Shown here piece by piece: positions 4,742 to 10,161 of a stretch of 10,161 bases of DNA. Under the pieces are notes generated by a model. That model searched no databases and was not told the DNA's origin. It was given only the letters and a program-made list of their open reading frames with translations. The stretch is from assembly GCA_030836935.1 (NCBI GenBank), contig JAUPMA010000289.1, positions 1 to 10,161 of the forward strand, read 5' to 3'. How positions within the stretch are numbered: the first letter of the stretch is position 1; each line of letters opens with the position of its first letter. The translations under genes were made by a program, and so were the position numbers. Origin of the DNA: Pseudomonadota bacterium. GTDB lineage: Bacteria; Pseudomonadota; Gammaproteobacteria; SZUA-229.

Positions 4742-5223
4742 GACAGAAGTCCGTTGATCAGATGCAACACCAGACAGGCCATTACACCTGCCAGCAAGTC
4801 ATCCAGCATGATTCCAAGTCCACCATGCACATGTTTATCCAGCCATGAAATTGGCCATGGCTTTAAAATATCAAAAATACGGAATGCCACAAAACCCGCC
4901 ATCATCCACCAGATTCCGGATGGCACGGCAATCATGGTCAGCAGATAACCGGAAATTTCATCGAACACAATGCCCGGATGATCATGCACGCGCAGCTGCT
5001 TGCTGGTGTAATCACAAATAGCTATCCCAGCCAGCGACACAAACAGGACAACCGACACATACAACCCGGTACTGAAATTGCTGATTGCATAATAAACAGG
5101 AATCGCTGCCAGGGTACCAAAAGTGCCGGGCGCTTTTGGCATCAGGCCCGTACCAAACCCAAGCGCCAGAAAATGCACGGGATTTTTCAGACAGGCTGGT
5201 GGAATTTTTACTGTTGATTTCAT
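4738..5223 (-). CDS. pgpA: phosphatidylglycerophosphatase A
   Basis: Inner-membrane enzyme that dephosphorylates phosphatidylglycerol phosphate to phosphatidylglycerol. The 161 residues contain GFGTGLMPKAPGTFGTL (22-38), Asp71 in ICDYTSK, FDEISGY (87-93) with the family's acidic pair, FDILKPWPI (117-125) and the MLDDLLAGV motif (139-147), which are the expected conserved sites. Hydrophobic segments at about 36-48, 53-70, 92-114 and 138-157 agree with an integral membrane protein. E. coli PgpA is 172 aa. The ATG overlaps the thiL stop and its own stop overlaps the protease start (ATGA both times), so thiL, pgpA and the protease are probably translated from one message. Confidence 0.95.
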   Translation of the reverse strand: MKSTVKIPPACLKNPVHFLALGFGTGLMPKAPGTFGTLAAIPVYYAISNFSTGLYVSVVLFVSLAGIAICDYTSKQLRVHDHPGIVFDEISGYLLTMIAVPSGIWWMMAGFVAFRIFDILKPWPISWLDKHVHGGLGIMLDDLLAGVMACLVLHLINGLLS

Positions 5224-6203
5224 TTTATGTTTGAAAAATGGTTATAACCGGTATTTTCAAAAACAACTTCCATGCCTGCCGCATCAAAACAATGTATTCC
5301 ATGGCCCGATATGATTTCACCAATACAGCTCATTTGCATACAACATTTATCTGCCATGACTTTTATTGATAATTCATTTTCTGACGGTAAGGTGAAACAC
5401 AATTCATAGTCATCACCACCTGCGACGATGACGGACCAGTCAACATCATTGCCATAGAAATTCCGTAATTCATCTGACAACGGCAATTTACTTAAATAGA
5501 TATTTGCTGCACAGCCACTGGCGTTGGCAATGTGTCCCAGATCAGCCACCAGACCATCCGAAATATCAATGCCGCACTGACTGATGGCTGACAGCTCCCG
5601 TCCCAATGCCACACGTGGCACTGGCCGGTTAAGTCTTGAAACGCAATGTACCAAAGAATTTTTCGTTACGAGCTGGCCAAGAACTTTTTTCAATCCCAAT
5701 GCCGCATCACCCAGTGTACCGCTGACATAAATTTTATCGCCGGGTTTTGCCGTATCGCGCCGTAACACCTGACTGGATGTTACAAATCCGGTTAATTGCA
5801 CCGTAATACTCAACGGCCCGGAGGTGGTGTCGCCACCAATTAATTGCACGCCATATTCATCTGCCAACACAGAAAATCCGCGCATGAACTCCTGCAACCA
5901 GCTTTCATCCGCTGCCGGCAATGTAATGGCCAGAATGGCCCAGGCCGGTTCTGCGCCCATGGCGGCAAGATCACTCAGATTCACAGCGAGTGATTTATAA
6001 CCGATATCAAAAGCGGATGTGTTGACAGGAAAATGCACACCGGCAACCAGTGTGTCAGCCGTCATCGCCAGTTGTTTGCCGGCTGGTGGCTGCAACAAGG
6101 CACAATCATCACCTATCCCCAGCAACACATCCGTGCGTTTGCAGGCAAACGATTTGAAATAATGATTGATAAGATCAAATTCGGACACGGCGCGTACAGG
6201 CAT
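5220..6203 (-). CDS. thiL: thiamine-monophosphate kinase
   Basis: Phosphorylates thiamine monophosphate with ATP to thiamine diphosphate, the active cofactor. With the ATG at 6203 the protein has 327 residues (E. coli 325). Motifs in order: SEFDLINHYF (7-16), GIGDDCALL (29-37, metal and nucleotide binding), TADTLVAGVHF (48-58), NLSDLAAMGAEP (75-86), GGDTT (123-127), GIDISDGL (211-218) and GGDDYELCF (262-270). A GTG at 6230 would add nine residues and a GTG at 6188 would trim five; neither start has a clear Shine-Dalgarno sequence, so ATG 6203 is a best guess. It lies 40 nt after nusB and overlaps pgpA by 4 nt. The nusB-thiL-pgpA order is standard in gammaproteobacteria. Confidence 0.96.
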   Translation of the reverse strand: MPVRAVSEFDLINHYFKSFACKRTDVLLGIGDDCALLQPPAGKQLAMTADTLVAGVHFPVNTSAFDIGYKSLAVNLSDLAAMGAEPAWAILAITLPAADESWLQEFMRGFSVLADEYGVQLIGGDTTSGPLSITVQLTGFVTSSQVLRRDTAKPGDKIYVSGTLGDAALGLKKVLGQLVTKNSLVHCVSRLNRPVPRVALGRELSAISQCGIDISDGLVADLGHIANASGCAANIYLSKLPLSDELRNFYGNDVDWSVIVAGGDDYELCFTLPSENELSIKVMADKCCMQMSCIGEIISGHGIHCFDAAGMEVVFENTGYNHFSNIK

Positions 6204-6243
6204 GATTGAATGATCGGGAGTGTACTCCACGAACTGTTACACG

Positions 6244-6684
6244 TTAACCGCGATTGATTTCAACAGAACGGCATTCGCGCGCCAGCTTGTCCAGCACGCC
6301 GTTGACAAACTTGTGGCTTTGTTCGGCACCAAAAGCGCGCGCAAGATGGATGGCTTCCTTGATGACCACCTGATACGGCACATCAGGACGGTTACGCAAT
6401 TCCCAGGTGGACAGGCGCAAAATCGCCTGCTCGACATGATCGAGCATCTCATCCTTGCGGCTCAGGTGTGGCAACAGCATGGCATCGATTTCATCAAGCT
6501 GTGCCGGCACGCCATGCAGCAGTTCATGAAAATAATCCACGTCCACTTTAGCCATGTTCTGCTCGTCATGAAACTGCACTTCGATATCATTCAAATCATT
6601 GCCGCTGATGGTCCACTGATACAGCGCCTGCATGGCTTTTTCGCGGGCACTGCTGCGGCGTTTGGCAAGGCTGGCATCCGCCAT
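6244..6684 (-). CDS. nusB: transcription antitermination factor NusB
   Basis: RNA-binding all-helical protein that, with NusE (S10), binds boxA of rRNA leader transcripts and supports processive transcription. The 146 residues begin with a basic segment SLAKRRSSAREKAMQALYQW, where the arginine-rich first helix contacts boxA RNA. They continue with the family marks LPHLSRKDEMLDHVEQAILRLSTWEL and VVIKEAIHLARAFGAEQSHKFVNGVLDKLA. Length is close to E. coli NusB (139). The ATG is 2 nt after the ribH stop and AGGA sits about 10 nt upstream, inside ribH. The ribH-nusB pairing is widely conserved. Confidence 0.97.
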   Translation of the reverse strand: MADASLAKRRSSAREKAMQALYQWTISGNDLNDIEVQFHDEQNMAKVDVDYFHELLHGVPAQLDEIDAMLLPHLSRKDEMLDHVEQAILRLSTWELRNRPDVPYQVVIKEAIHLARAFGAEQSHKFVNGVLDKLARECRSVEINRG

Positions 6685-6686
6685 GA

Positions 6687-7160
6687 TCAGGAAATCCTGG
6701 CCAGCAGGTTCACCATTTCAATGGCTGTGACCGCCGCCTCTGCGCCCTTGTTACCGGCCTTGGTACCGGCACGTTCAATCGCCTGTTCAATGGAATCGGT
6801 AGTCAATACGCCAAAGATCACCGGAATTCCGTGATCCAGCGCCACTGAAGACATACCCTTGGCTGCCTCACCGGCCACATAATCAAAATGCGGTGTAGAC
6901 CCGCGAATCACTGCACCCAAACCAATAATGGCCTGGTAATTACCGCTCTGCGCAACGCGTTGCACGGCCACCGGCATTTCATAGGCGCCCGGCACCTTGA
7001 TCACGGTAATCTGGTCAGCTGGCACGCCATGACGCCTGAAAGCATCCAGCGCACCGGCGAGCAGGCTTTCGACGATAAAACCGTTGAAACGTGCGACAAC
7101 AATGGCAAAACGACCTGTGGTGTAAATCAGATCGCCTTCGATGGTTGATACTTGTGACAT
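6687..7160 (-). CDS. ribH: 6,7-dimethyl-8-ribityllumazine synthase
   Basis: Condenses 5-amino-6-ribitylaminouracil with 3,4-dihydroxybutanone 4-phosphate to lumazine, the penultimate step of riboflavin synthesis. The 157 residues contain the substrate-stacking FN (25-26), [11 protein letters not shown] (57-66), [14 protein letters not shown] (82-95) with the likely general-base His91, and [11 protein letters not shown] (117-127). Length matches E. coli (156). The start has no strong Shine-Dalgarno sequence. The gene lies 119 nt after ribBX, the gap containing a heptamer array and a TATAAT box, and 2 nt before nusB. Confidence 0.97.
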
Positions 7161-7279: not shown

Positions 7280-8389
7280 TTACTGCTCTTCAGACTTGCC
7301 TGCCACATAATCCACCACTTCCAGGCCGAAGCCGGCCAGGCCATGAATACGTTTCGGCGCCGTCATCAAACGCATTTTATGCACATTCAGATCCATCAGT
7401 ATCTGCGCTCCAACACCGTGAGTGCGCAAATCACCAGCCTGCACTTCGTGTTGTGCCGGTTCATGCGGGCTGAGCATCCATTGCACAATATCACGCGCAT
7501 CCTGCGGCTGGCGCAGGATCACCACCACGCCCGGCTGATCACTTTCGGCAATCTGTTTCATCGCCGCACGCAACGGCCAGCTGCTGGTCTGGCTGGAAGC
7601 CAGCACATCAAACAACGTATTTTCCATATGCACGCGCACCAGCACCGGCTGATCCGGCTTGATCTCGCCCTTCACCAGCGCCAGATGCAAACCTTTACCC
7701 ACGGCGTCCTGATAGGCATACAAACGAAAGCGGCCAAACTCATTGGGGAAATCACATTCGGCAACCCGCTCAACAGATTTCTCATTCTGAATGCGATAAC
7801 GAATCAGCGCCTCAATGGTGCCGATTTTAAGATTGTGTTCTTTGGCAAATTTTTCCAGATCGGGACGGCGTGCCATGGTGCCGTCGTCATTGAGGATTTC
7901 AACAATCACCGATGCCGGTTCAAAACCCGCCAGACGCGCCAGATCGCAACCGGCTTCGGTATGACCGGCGCGATTCAACACGCCACCGGGTTGCGCCATT
8001 AACGGGAAAATATGTCCCGGCTGCACGATGTGTTCCGGGCGTGCATTTTTTGCCACCGCCGCCTGAATCGTCACTGCACGATCCGCTGCCGAAATACCGG
8101 TGGTGACACCTTCAGCCGCTTCAATCGACATGGTGAAATTGGTTCCATGCGCCGAATCGGTGGCATTGATCATCAACGGCAAGCGCAATTGCTGGCAACG
8201 ATCGCGCGTCAGTGTCAGACAAATCAGGCCGCGTCCGTAACGCGCCATGAAATTGATATCTGCCGCCGTCGCACAGGAGGCCGCCATCAACAGATCGCCT
8301 TCGTTTTCACGATCCTCGTCATCCATGATGATGACCATCTTGCCCTGACGCAGATCTTCGATAATTTCTTCAATAGAATTTAATTGCAT
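7280..8389 (-). CDS. ribB: 3,4-dihydroxy-2-butanone 4-phosphate synthase with degenerate GTP cyclohydrolase II-like domain (RibBX type)
   Basis: The N-terminal domain makes 3,4-dihydroxybutanone 4-phosphate from ribulose 5-phosphate, one of the two RibH substrates. The 369 residues start MQLNSIEEIIEDLRQGKMVI. Catalytic motifs are DDEDRENEGD (23-32), MARYGRGLICL (48-58), GISAADRA (98-105), HTEAGCDLARLAG (143-155) and EILNDDGTMARRPDL (164-178). Residues about 205-365 align with RibA (EFGRFRLYAY, HLALVKGEI, DLRTHGVGAQILMDLNV, GLAGFGLEVVDYV) but the zinc cysteines of the SECLTGD...RCDC motif are absent (HMENTLFDVLASSQTSSW at 254-271). GTP cyclohydrolase II activity is therefore unlikely and a separate ribA is expected elsewhere. 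A longer in-frame start at 8458 would only translate repeats. The gene is bracketed by two heptamer arrays and its start has only a weak GGAT upstream. Confidence 0.95.
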   Translation of the reverse strand: MQLNSIEEIIEDLRQGKMVIIMDDEDRENEGDLLMAASCATAADINFMARYGRGLICLTLTRDRCQQLRLPLMINATDSAHGTNFTMSIEAAEGVTTGISAADRAVTIQAAVAKNARPEHIVQPGHIFPLMAQPGGVLNRAGHTEAGCDLARLAGFEPASVIVEILNDDGTMARRPDLEKFAKEHNLKIGTIEALIRYRIQNEKSVERVAECDFPNEFGRFRLYAYQDAVGKGLHLALVKGEIKPDQPVLVRVHMENTLFDVLASSQTSSWPLRAAMKQIAESDQPGVVVILRQPQDARDIVQWMLSPHEPAQHEVQAGDLRTHGVGAQILMDLNVHKMRLMTAPKRIHGLAGFGLEVVDYVAGKSEEQ

Positions 8390-8438: not shown

Positions 8439-8442
8439 AACC

Positions 8443-8516
8443 AAGTGGCAAGTAGCAAGTGCGAAGTAGCAAGCAGAAGTTTCTCCTTGCCACTTGCTAC
8501 TTGAACCTTGCTACTT
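8443..8516. repeat. Inverted array of AAGNNNN heptamers between ribE and ribBX
   Basis: The plus strand carries AAGTGGC, AAGTAGC, AAGTGCG, AAGTAGC and AAG (8443-8473). The minus strand, from 8516, carries AAGTAGC, AAGGTTC, AAGTAGC, AAGTGGC and AAGGAG (to 8483). Facing each other, 8450-8473 pairs with 8493-8516 over 24 bp with four mismatches, all in one heptamer; the 19-nt loop includes a small AGAA-GT-TTCT palindrome. The ribE stop codon TAG is itself part of the first AAGTAGC. Same unit length, AAG phase and head-on arrangement as the array at 7211-7278, and both contain AAGTGGC. Confidence 0.85.
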
Positions 8517-9170
8517 TTTCATAAACCCGTGTTCAGCCAAAAACGCTTCAGTAATTCCACTACCGGATTGCGCCGCCTTGTCACCCAGCAACAAACGCTC
8601 CAGATAACGCGCAATCAAATCCACTTCAAGATTGACACGATGACCGGATTGATACTGATTCATAATCGTTTCCTGCAAGGTATGCGGCACAATATTCAAT
8701 TCAAACCGGCAACCATCCACCTTGTTTACCGTGAGGCTGACACCATCGACGGTAATCGAACCTTTCATGGCAATATATTTTGCAAGATTCGATGGCGCTT
8801 CAATAACAAAACGCACCGAACGTGCATCATCGCGGCGATCCATAACACGGCCCACACCGTCCACATGGCCACTCACCAGATGACCGCCCAGGCGCGTAGT
8901 GGGTGTCAAGGCTTTTTCCAGGTTCACCGCACTGCCCGTCTGCAAATCACCCAGCGTGGTCAGTGACAGGGTTTCACCGGAAACATCCGCACAATATGCA
9001 TCGGCTTTCAGCTCAATCGCCGTGAGACACACACCGTTGGCGGCAATACTGTCGCCCAGCTGTACATCACGCATATCGAGCTTGCCGGTATGAATCCAGA
9101 TGCGCGCATCGCCACCCTTATTCCGGATGGATTCGATCTTGCCAACGGCTTGAATAATACCCGTGAACAT
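8511..9170 (-). CDS. ribE: riboflavin synthase, alpha chain
   Basis: Catalyses the dismutation of two 6,7-dimethyl-8-ribityllumazine molecules to riboflavin, the last step of the pathway. The 219-residue protein has the two tandem beta-barrel halves of the family: MFTGII at the start, GDSIAANGVCLT (39-50) with the Ser41 and Cys48 positions, GGHLVSGHVDGVG (95-107) with His97 and His102, and the second-half counterpart KGSITVDGVSLTVN (136-149). A C-terminal helix RYLERLL is used for trimerisation in relatives. The ATG gives the invariant MFTG start; AAGAG lies about 6 nt upstream. It is called ribC in E. coli. It begins 2 nt after the Ntn hydrolase, and its stop codon lies inside a heptamer repeat. 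Confidence 0.97.
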   Translation of the reverse strand: MFTGIIQAVGKIESIRNKGGDARIWIHTGKLDMRDVQLGDSIAANGVCLTAIELKADAYCADVSGETLSLTTLGDLQTGSAVNLEKALTPTTRLGGHLVSGHVDGVGRVMDRRDDARSVRFVIEAPSNLAKYIAMKGSITVDGVSLTVNKVDGCRFELNIVPHTLQETIMNQYQSGHRVNLEVDLIARYLERLLLGDKAAQSGSGITEAFLAEHGFMKK

Positions 9171-9172
9171 AA

Positions 9173-9760
9173 TTAACTCTTTTTCAAATCTACCGTGTAC
9201 ATGGTCAAGGGCAAGGAGGATGCTGTATTGAATTCACAACCTGCTTCAACACCGGCACGCGCAATATCTTCCGGTGATTTCAGACGATCGTACAAGGCAA
9301 ACATGGCGCCGAGTGCATATTCAGAACCGGAACCAATTGCCCAGAAGCGCGCGTACTGACTCACTTCGCGCAATGAATAAATGCCGAAAATGCCATTGGG
9401 ATTGCAAATCAGCGCATCAATGTGTGTAGCTTCATAAGGATCATCATCTTCATCCTTGGTTTTGAGAAAATATTTATCCTTTAATACCGGATGCAGTTTT
9501 CGAAAAGTTTCAAAAACCGCCATGCGATCCGAAAAATCAATTTTGACTTTTTTATCTTTCAGCACGCTTTCCATCACCAGTGCATGCGCCGCACTGCCAA
9601 CAATACCGAAATAACCGGCATCGGTGCCATGACCATAATTCTGGATTTTGTCGCTGGAGGCATCATAAGGTACACCCATGCGCAAATCACCAAACGTGGT
9701 GAGGCTGTCCGCCGCAATCACGGCCTTGCCATTTTTTTGTACCGCTACAATGGTGGACAT
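9173..9760 (-). CDS. Proteasome-like Ntn hydrolase (HslV/BPH type)
   Basis: A 195-residue protein of the proteasome beta-subunit superfamily, expected to form a cytoplasmic ring-shaped peptidase. It starts MSTIVAVQKNGKAVIAADSL, nearly the N-terminus of E. coli HslV (MTTIVSVRRNG...IAGDGQ). After Met removal the catalytic positions are residue 1, Asp17 and a lysine (Lys37, in SDKI); the HslV lysine is at 33, so there is a 4-residue insertion here. AIGSGSEYALGA (141-152) matches HslV AIGSGGPYAQAA. Residue 1 is Ser, not Thr. An acidic insert TKDEDDDPYEATH (101-113) and the overall sequence, from memory, are closer to the BPH group described in betaproteobacteria. GAGGA precedes the start. It lies 3 nt after ribD and 2 nt before ribE; no hslU is in view. 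Superfamily certain, subgroup likely. Confidence 0.85.
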   Translation of the reverse strand: MSTIVAVQKNGKAVIAADSLTTFGDLRMGVPYDASSDKIQNYGHGTDAGYFGIVGSAAHALVMESVLKDKKVKIDFSDRMAVFETFRKLHPVLKDKYFLKTKDEDDDPYEATHIDALICNPNGIFGIYSLREVSQYARFWAIGSGSEYALGAMFALYDRLKSPEDIARAGVEAGCEFNTASSLPLTMYTVDLKKS

Positions 9761-9763
9761 AAA

Positions 9764-10161
9764 TTATAATTCCTCAATAATGCGCCGTCTGGGCCGCGCG
9801 GTGATGCGCCAGTCTTTACCCAGCGCGCGCATATCCAGAATATCCAGACCGATGCGCTGGTTCATGCTGGCAATTTGTGGCAAGTGAAACAAACCCTTGG
9901 CACTGTCACCCATAATATGCGGCGCCATGTATATAACCACTTCATCCACCAGATCCGATTCCAGCAACGCACCGCATAAAATACTGCCGGCCTCCACATG
10001 CAATTCATTTACCTGTTTCTGTTCAGCCAGCCAGTTGAGTGCCTGATACAAATCCACCTGACCGTTGTTATCTGCAACCCTGTCAACGGAAACATTTTCG
10101 CGTGTACAGGCGGCCGTTTTTTCGCTGGTCGTCAGAATAATAATCGGGCCGGCAGGCTGAA
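9764..10161 (-). CDS. ribD: RibD, C-terminal reductase domain (partial)
   Basis: RibD is a two-domain enzyme: an N-terminal pyrimidine deaminase and a C-terminal NADPH-dependent reductase, acting on the early pyrimidine intermediates of riboflavin synthesis. Only the last 131 residues are in the window, reading from QPAGPIIILTT. Family marks of the reductase are LNWLAEQKQVNELHVEAG, ILCGALLESDLVDEVVIYMAP and the C-terminal arginine-rich tail (RPRRRIIEEL). VEAG...L.GALL...LVDE...Y.AP matches the E. coli RibD end. The open frame continues past the window edge, so the apparent GTG at 10057 is not a real start. The Ntn hydrolase starts 3 nt after the stop, so this is the leading gene of the visible operon. 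Confidence 0.94.
   Translation of the reverse strand, partial: QPAGPIIILTTSEKTAACTRENVSVDRVADNNGQVDLYQALNWLAEQKQVNELHVEAGSILCGALLESDLVDEVVIYMAPHIMGDSAKGLFHLPQIASMNQRIGLDILDMRALGKDWRITARPRRRIIEEL

Follow-up and report, generated by a model that had tools for sequence, protein, structure and literature searches.

Bacterial proteasome homologues (BPHs) are represented by solved structures of the proteins from Cupriavidus metallidurans (5ovu) and Thiobacillus denitrificans (5ovs, 5ovt), and no substrate, activity or role is reported for them in the literature covered here. According to the main text of Fuchs et al. (2018; PMC5777263), the N-terminal residue is serine in all BPHs outside Betaproteobacteria, the prevailing genomic contexts are the argG, pyruvate dehydrogenase and hsp33 operons, and no partner ATPase was found. 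Both BPHs tested in that study, which carry Thr1, were inert on peptides and casein, yet were modified by epoxomicin and MG132; because of this inertness, proteolysis by any BPH is unproven. Among proteasome-like proteins, connectase is described as acting as a ligase (PMC8665760). The word 'riboflavin' is absent from the main text, as distinct from the supplements, of PMC5777263, and neither 'riboflavin' nor 'operon' occurs in the portion of PMC8665760 considered. Literature searches that paired BPH or proteasome with riboflavin or rib returned no paper on the combination among the matches listed, and broader BPH searches returned no further BPH study among theirs.

The gene analysed here is located in a stretch of 10,161 nucleotides (the window) that makes up an entire contig (C285) of a gammaproteobacterial genome (G000) rated 58% complete. 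Open-frame reading of the window yields a 195-residue product that starts ATG TCC ACC ATT (MSTI...), with the nucleophile codon directly after that for Met and no propeptide. The flanking genes were named by NCBIfam profile search (Table 1), and the position between ribD and ribE, with the short gaps given in a preliminary description of this DNA, agrees with the coordinates obtained. The immediate neighbours in the window are thus ribD and ribE, with no AAA+ unfoldase gene directly beside the BPH gene. The GTP cyclohydrolase II half of RibBA scores just 60 bits against an NCBIfam cut-off of 205.85 and may be inactive. Between ribE and ribBA, positions 8442-8516 contain clustered short repeats of the AAGTAGCAAG type in both orientations, forming imperfect inverted repeats (with at most two mismatches, eight matches in the window, six of them within 8442-8516, against 0.84 expected).

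Table 1. Features of the window, with profile scores in bits and the respective cut-offs
Feature	Position	Strand	Basis
thiL	5220..6230	-	TIGR01379, 346 bits, cut-off 184.15
nusB	6244..6684	-	TIGR01951, 145 bits, cut-off 88.35
ribH, lumazine synthase	6687..7160	-	TIGR00114, 188 bits, cut-off 84.6
ribBA	7280..8389	-	NF010626, 555 bits, cut-off 513
ribE, riboflavin synthase, 2 nt downstream of BPH gene	8511..9170	-	NF006767, 249 bits, cut-off 155
BPH/ribE gap, 2 nt	9171-9172		
BPH-type proteasome homologue, 195 aa, predicted mature N-terminus Ser1	9173..9760	-	PDB match and fold
Acidic pore loop KDEDDDPYE, residues 102-110	9431..9457	-	alignment
Ser codon TCC, predicted nucleophile Ser1 (ORF residue 2)	9755..9757	-	sequence
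ribD/BPH gap, 3 nt	9761-9763		
ribD 3' part, truncated by contig end, 3 nt upstream of BPH gene	9764..10159	-	TIGR00227, 76.5 bits, partial, under cut-off 150.15

The preliminary description suggested that the protein might belong to the BPH group, and it is indeed a BPH, ordinary by its fold. Its best solved relatives are 5ovu (160 bits, E 5.3e-46) and 5ovs (117 bits, E 9.7e-33), clearly ahead of the best solved HslV match (19.7 bits), and structure comparison places the fold of the predicted model nearest to BPH. Since the protein shares 45% identity with the C. metallidurans BPH, membership in the cluster of gammaproteobacterial proteasome homologues (GPH), as described in the covered portion of PMC8665760, is judged unlikely from the sequence. 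The window protein and the BPHs of C. metallidurans and T. denitrificans have in common the fold, the length, the lack of a propeptide, the Asp17, Lys37 and Gly residues and the acidic pore loop, but the latter two combine Thr1 with a pyruvate dehydrogenase or argG context (PMC5777263, main text), whereas the window protein combines Ser1 with rib genes. As far as that text describes the Ser1 BPHs, the window protein belongs to the same subfamily. The long acidic insert noticed earlier corresponds to the BPH pore loop; its net charge is -4 in the window protein (mean -4.9, range -6 to -3 in 69 rib-linked proteins), and the predicted model has pLDDT below 50 at residues 99-110 in this region.

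HslV, including the Ser1 protein CodW of B. subtilis, shares the Ntn-hydrolase fold and a Ser or Thr nucleophile with the window protein, which, however, falls far below the HslV cut-offs (29.2 bits against 157.75 for TIGR03692 and 30.2 against 137 for NF003964), has a long pore loop and lacks an hslU neighbour, and a separate hslV-hslU pair is present in sister genomes. The catalytic triad and fold are also common to the 20S proteasome beta subunit, from which the window protein differs in having Ser1 and Val46 instead of Thr1 and Ala46, in lacking a propeptide and, within the window, in the lack of an adjacent alpha-subunit gene. NCBI-derived records label this family 'MFS transporter' (the window protein itself and P0013, P0020, P0038, P0086, P0100, P0108 and P0121), and several JGI records label relatives HslV; both labels are misleading for BPH, and the 'MFS transporter' records would be corrected by the present assignment. 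We also observe a four-residue insert in the window protein (residues 45-48, positions 9617-9628), ahead of the strand that leads to the oxyanion Gly, which in the alignment none of the remaining 68 full-length rib-linked proteins shares, save for one residue in one of them. Eight of 54 genomes of the same order (G011, G019, G022, G023, G026, G031, G033 and G035) encode an additional PF00227 protein, possibly Anbu, in an open frame of 248-290 aa.

Ser2, Asp18, Lys38 and Gly55 of the open frame (Ser1, Asp17 and Lys37 and the oxyanion Gly of the predicted mature protein) align with the catalytic residues of T. denitrificans BPH named in the main text of PMC5777263. The BPH pattern of Asp17, Lys37 and Gly50 is thereby complete, with Ser as the nucleophile. 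Active sites were compared in 91 loci (96 less five incomplete ones), of which 69 are rib-linked and 22 are not. All 69 full-length rib-linked proteins have Ser1, Asp17, Lys37 and the oxyanion Gly, so that the predicted Ser1 of the preliminary description recurs together with the rib location. Ser1 in BPHs outside Betaproteobacteria is not new, having been published in 2018 (PMC5777263, main text). Among the 22 loci outside the rib slot, 17 have Thr1 and five Ser1. The Ser1 codon is TCN in every one of the 69 rib-linked loci, with all four third bases in use, and threonine is just one base change away. The counterpart of the serine that forms a hydrogen bond with Thr1 in T. denitrificans BPH, Ser144 in the window protein, is replaced by Ala in 12 of the 69.

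When 71 Ser1 proteins (the 69 rib-linked and two from family-level group f128) are compared with the 10 Thr1 proteins of a phylum-wide sample, three alignment columns distinguish the groups completely or almost completely, namely residue 1, the residue that precedes the oxyanion Gly, and a column with Leu in 68/71 Ser1 proteins versus Tyr (seven) or Met (three) in the Thr1 proteins. The residue before the Gly, which by alignment on this Gly is position 46 of the proteasome, is Val in all 71 Ser1 proteins as opposed to Ala (seven), Ser (two) or Cys (one) in the Thr1 proteins. For Ser1 BPHs, the covered parts of the main text of PMC5777263, as distinct from its Fig. S3, name no active-site companion residue. 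In yeast beta5, Ala46 and Thr3 hold the methyl group of Thr1; in the T1S mutant, the Ser hydroxyl swings into the place of the methyl, with a loss of 40-45% of activity on one substrate (PMC4792962, in the part considered). We infer that Val46 fills the space of the Thr1 methyl in Ser1 BPHs.

A wider set consists of 272 homologues longer than 150 aa, drawn from the best 120 of each of three database searches, with two shorter ones dropped. Here, 18 proteins have Thr1 (P0201, P0203, P0205, P0211 and 14 more), an exception to the published statement that Ser1 is universal outside Betaproteobacteria, which they contradict. All 18 have Val46 and are near relatives of the f138 protein; only one is named Halofilum, and the three genomes sampled from the Halofilum-related order have Ser1 and are rib-linked. 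Val46 does not require Ser1, given that these 18 listed homologues pair it with Thr1, and a strict Ser1-Val46 rule also fails in the same set, where position 46 is Ile in 12 Ser1 proteins and Cys in one. It is Thr or Ala in three Ser1 loci that are not of the rib type, and Asp17 is replaced by Glu in three of the 272. The pairing of Ser1 with Val46 may reflect shared ancestry rather than coadaptation. The natural series of Thr1 with Ala, Ser or Cys46, Ser1 with Val46 and Thr1 with Val46 offers a direct way to ask why proteasomes use threonine.

Within the order to which the window belongs, the gene was found in 46 of the 54 genomes, truncated by contig ends in two of them (G011 and G026), and is adjacent to ribD and/or ribE in all 46, a recurrence much higher than chance would produce. 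The eight genomes without it probably just miss this sequence, because seven also lack a RibE match and in the eighth RibE is cut at a contig end. An even sample of 370 genomes of the gammaproteobacterial class gave 44 hits, all inspected for context: 31 adjoin ribD and/or ribE in the slot (30 intact, one broken, in G219) and 13 are elsewhere, where it should be considered that the contig of G368 stops before ribD and that G212 and G085, among the 13, have short flanks. The 31 rib-slot loci span 13 family-level codes (f1, f8, f41, f45, f48, f57, f76, f81, f110, f111, f115, f137 and f138). A second class sample (37 hits in 360 genomes, mostly the same genomes) added two rib-linked loci, in G793 and G819. 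In the phylum sample there were 13 hits in 397 genomes, and the 10 new loci fetched all have Thr1, none of them rib-linked; a context was assigned to nine of the ten, pyruvate dehydrogenase genes in seven, hsp33 in one and argF with argG in one, the neighbours being named by sequence reading rather than by family search. These ten loci are taken as the betaproteobacterial type because their contexts and Thr1 match the published ones.

The gene arrangement in the slot is compact. The distance from ribD to the BPH gene is -20 to 60 nt in 57/67 rib-linked loci and that from the BPH gene to ribE is -20 to 10 nt in 51/69, and in each of the 23 listed rib loci that extend far enough upstream, nrdR is found ahead of ribD. 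The best match is to BPH, ribD or ribE adjoins the gene in dozens of genomes, and the close homologues have Ser1, all in line with the preliminary description. The ribD-BPH-ribE slot is conserved and appears to be new, undescribed as far as the literature searches show, and its presence in 13 family-level groups provides a testable genetic setting for an enzyme family about which little is known. In genomes lacking an intact BPH in the rib slot, 40 RibE loci were examined; RibD is upstream in 35 of them, one being the broken locus of G219, and the ribD-ribE gap is at most 120 nt in 30 of the remaining 34.

A different location is seen in the two genomes of f128, where the gene order is nrdR-BPH-ndk-rlmN with mdh on the opposite strand (NrdR and Ndk confirmed by NCBIfam), and ribD and ribE are joined to each other on other contigs. 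The nearest BPH relatives of f128 are in f48 (support 92/94), where two of three genomes show mdh followed by nrdR-ribD-BPH-ribE and the third is truncated. We claim only the different location for f128, and from the f48 arrangement we infer that the rib genes moved; the f128 BPH gene seems to have persisted, with catalytic residues intact, after its rib neighbours were gone. A free Ser1 is less certain here because the codon before it is TTG and the frame stays open upstream to an ATG. Replacement of the f128 rib genes by a foreign operon was considered and rejected: RibE is divergent (39-40%), yet the AU test gives no rejection of a grouping of f128 with f48 (p 0.554). Loss of the gene is possible because it is broken in place between ribD and ribE in G219 (L084; a single-contig genome of f41) while intact in the genus mate G093 (L109). 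The search for BPH remnants in six wide ribD-ribE gaps gave none at E <= 1; a BPH-less gap of 426 nt in L143 contains an open frame of about 130 codons.

In a tree of 64 BPHs (order thinned, residue 1 excluded, rooted with HslV), one group of 20 (support 83/96) unites the Thr1-rich proteins with three Ser1 proteins and is separate from the Ser1 proteins of the rib type and of f128. The tree implies at least five changes between Ser and Thr, which may have run either way given the very long HslV root branch and several long rows, and at least three between rib and non-rib contexts. In the weakly resolved RibE tree, BPH-bearing and BPH-less lineages are intermixed, which fits an old presence of BPH with many losses. 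The BPH genes are under purifying selection, with median dN/dS of 0.03-0.06 in six rib-linked groups, similar to or lower than that of RibE (0.04-0.17) and lower than that of the C-terminal part of RibD (0.09-0.37) in the same groups; values are 0.065 in f128 and 0.11 and 0.19 in two Thr1 pairs, many pairs having dS above 1.

The absence of hslU nearby, pointed out in the preliminary description, holds for the window but not for the genome, which contains an HslU fragment on another contig (C71; 382 bits against a cut-off of 362). HslU is above the cut-off in 47/54 order genomes, with an HslV-like match beside it where the two lists were compared, for example in G034. Outside the order, HslV was detected in 25 of the 28 BPH genomes, including the broken G219 and both f128 genomes; it was not found in the BPH genomes G128, G198 and G363 (100, 94 and 92% complete, respectively). 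Given this distribution, BPH does not substitute for HslV and probably needs no HslU.

On the explanation that we regard, taken as a whole, as on balance probable, the gene encodes a Ser1-type BPH acting as a chamber protease that is independent of ATP and expressed together with the housekeeping rib genes. The protein would be a self-compartmentalising N-terminal-nucleophile peptidase related to HslV, from which methionine aminopeptidase would take off the Met and expose Ser1, the hydroxyl of which would be activated by Lys37 and Asp17 while the conserved Gly holds the oxyanion. The subunits probably assemble into two stacked rings that enclose the active sites and acidic pore loops, and the enzyme would act on small or unfolded substrates independently of HslU, with Val in place of the proteasome Ala46 probably helping a serine nucleophile to work where threonine is usual. 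The gene was probably fixed early in the stable housekeeping rib operon of Gammaproteobacteria, which would account for its close spacing with ribD and ribE, and the slot would supply steady expression rather than mark a step of riboflavin synthesis. It seems to us improbable that in Gammaproteobacteria this Ser-nucleophile proteasome relative is a dedicated part of the riboflavin operon, namely a chamber protease responsible for the turnover of Rib enzymes or apo-flavoproteins, in which Val46 adjusts Ser1 to full competence instead of leaving it a weakened Thr1.

The recurrence of the slot (all 46 order hits, and 31 of the 44 class hits across 13 family-level groups) and the tight spacing also favor a protease tied to flavin metabolism, which would clear Rib enzymes that are misfolded or in the apo form, or flavoproteins lacking flavin, and be co-expressed to match flavin supply; the linkage across 13 families might just as well point to a genuine role in flavin metabolism. 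We nevertheless consider such a tie unlikely: both f128 genomes hold BPH away from the rib genes, Thr1 BPHs sit with aceE/aceF/lpd, hsp33 or argG (as also in the main text of PMC5777263), many rib operons have no BPH, and the C-terminal tails of RibE, compared by eye, are alike in BPH-bearing and BPH-less genomes. The flavin-related turnover that the preliminary description offered as speculation remains such and is weakened by the nrdR-BPH-ndk lineage (f128). In addition, the rib operon is very stable, so the linkage may be passive. Taken to its limit, the gene would be a hitchhiker that landed once between ribD and ribE and was kept by operon stability, gaining only expression. The few events implied by the tree and contexts and the closeness of ribD and ribE in most loci without a rib-slot BPH agree with this scenario, which is a minimal form of the favored explanation and hard to tell apart from it, but the intact active site and low dN/dS argue that the protein itself is under selection, making mere hitchhiking quite improbable. 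The inertness of known BPHs on standard substrates (PMC5777263, main text) and the ligase activity of proteasome-like connectase raise the prospect that the protein is no protease but a specific transpeptidase, ligase or other amidase. This is very improbable considering that the predicted model retains four helices, including the first pair that is absent in connectase, that its best match is BPH, and that, according to the same text, epoxomicin and MG132 react with Thr1 BPH as they do with proteasomes.

The statement of the preliminary description that expression follows riboflavin synthesis was deduced from the gene spacing, and a route through the FMN riboswitch is not indicated: Rfam searches at the gathering threshold found this element in none of 23 BPH-bearing loci (the window, nine and 13 others) as opposed to four of 20 loci from BPH-less genomes, a descriptive comparison in which stretch lengths differ, the window ends inside ribD and the lineages are not independent. 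The four riboswitches lie near rib genes (L181 1299-1438, L169 2276-2474, L161 2277-2442 and L176 3225-3368), and those of L169 and L181 are located in the ribD-ribE gap, the place taken by BPH elsewhere. A degron-like RibE tail linked to BPH was likewise rejected, as tails such as LLAEHGFLK occur, by eye, with and without BPH. Finally, the Vibrio antisense RNA family V_AS9 of Rfam is above threshold in two rib loci (L097 4594-4697 and L164 1274-1380), which may be a match to coding sequence.
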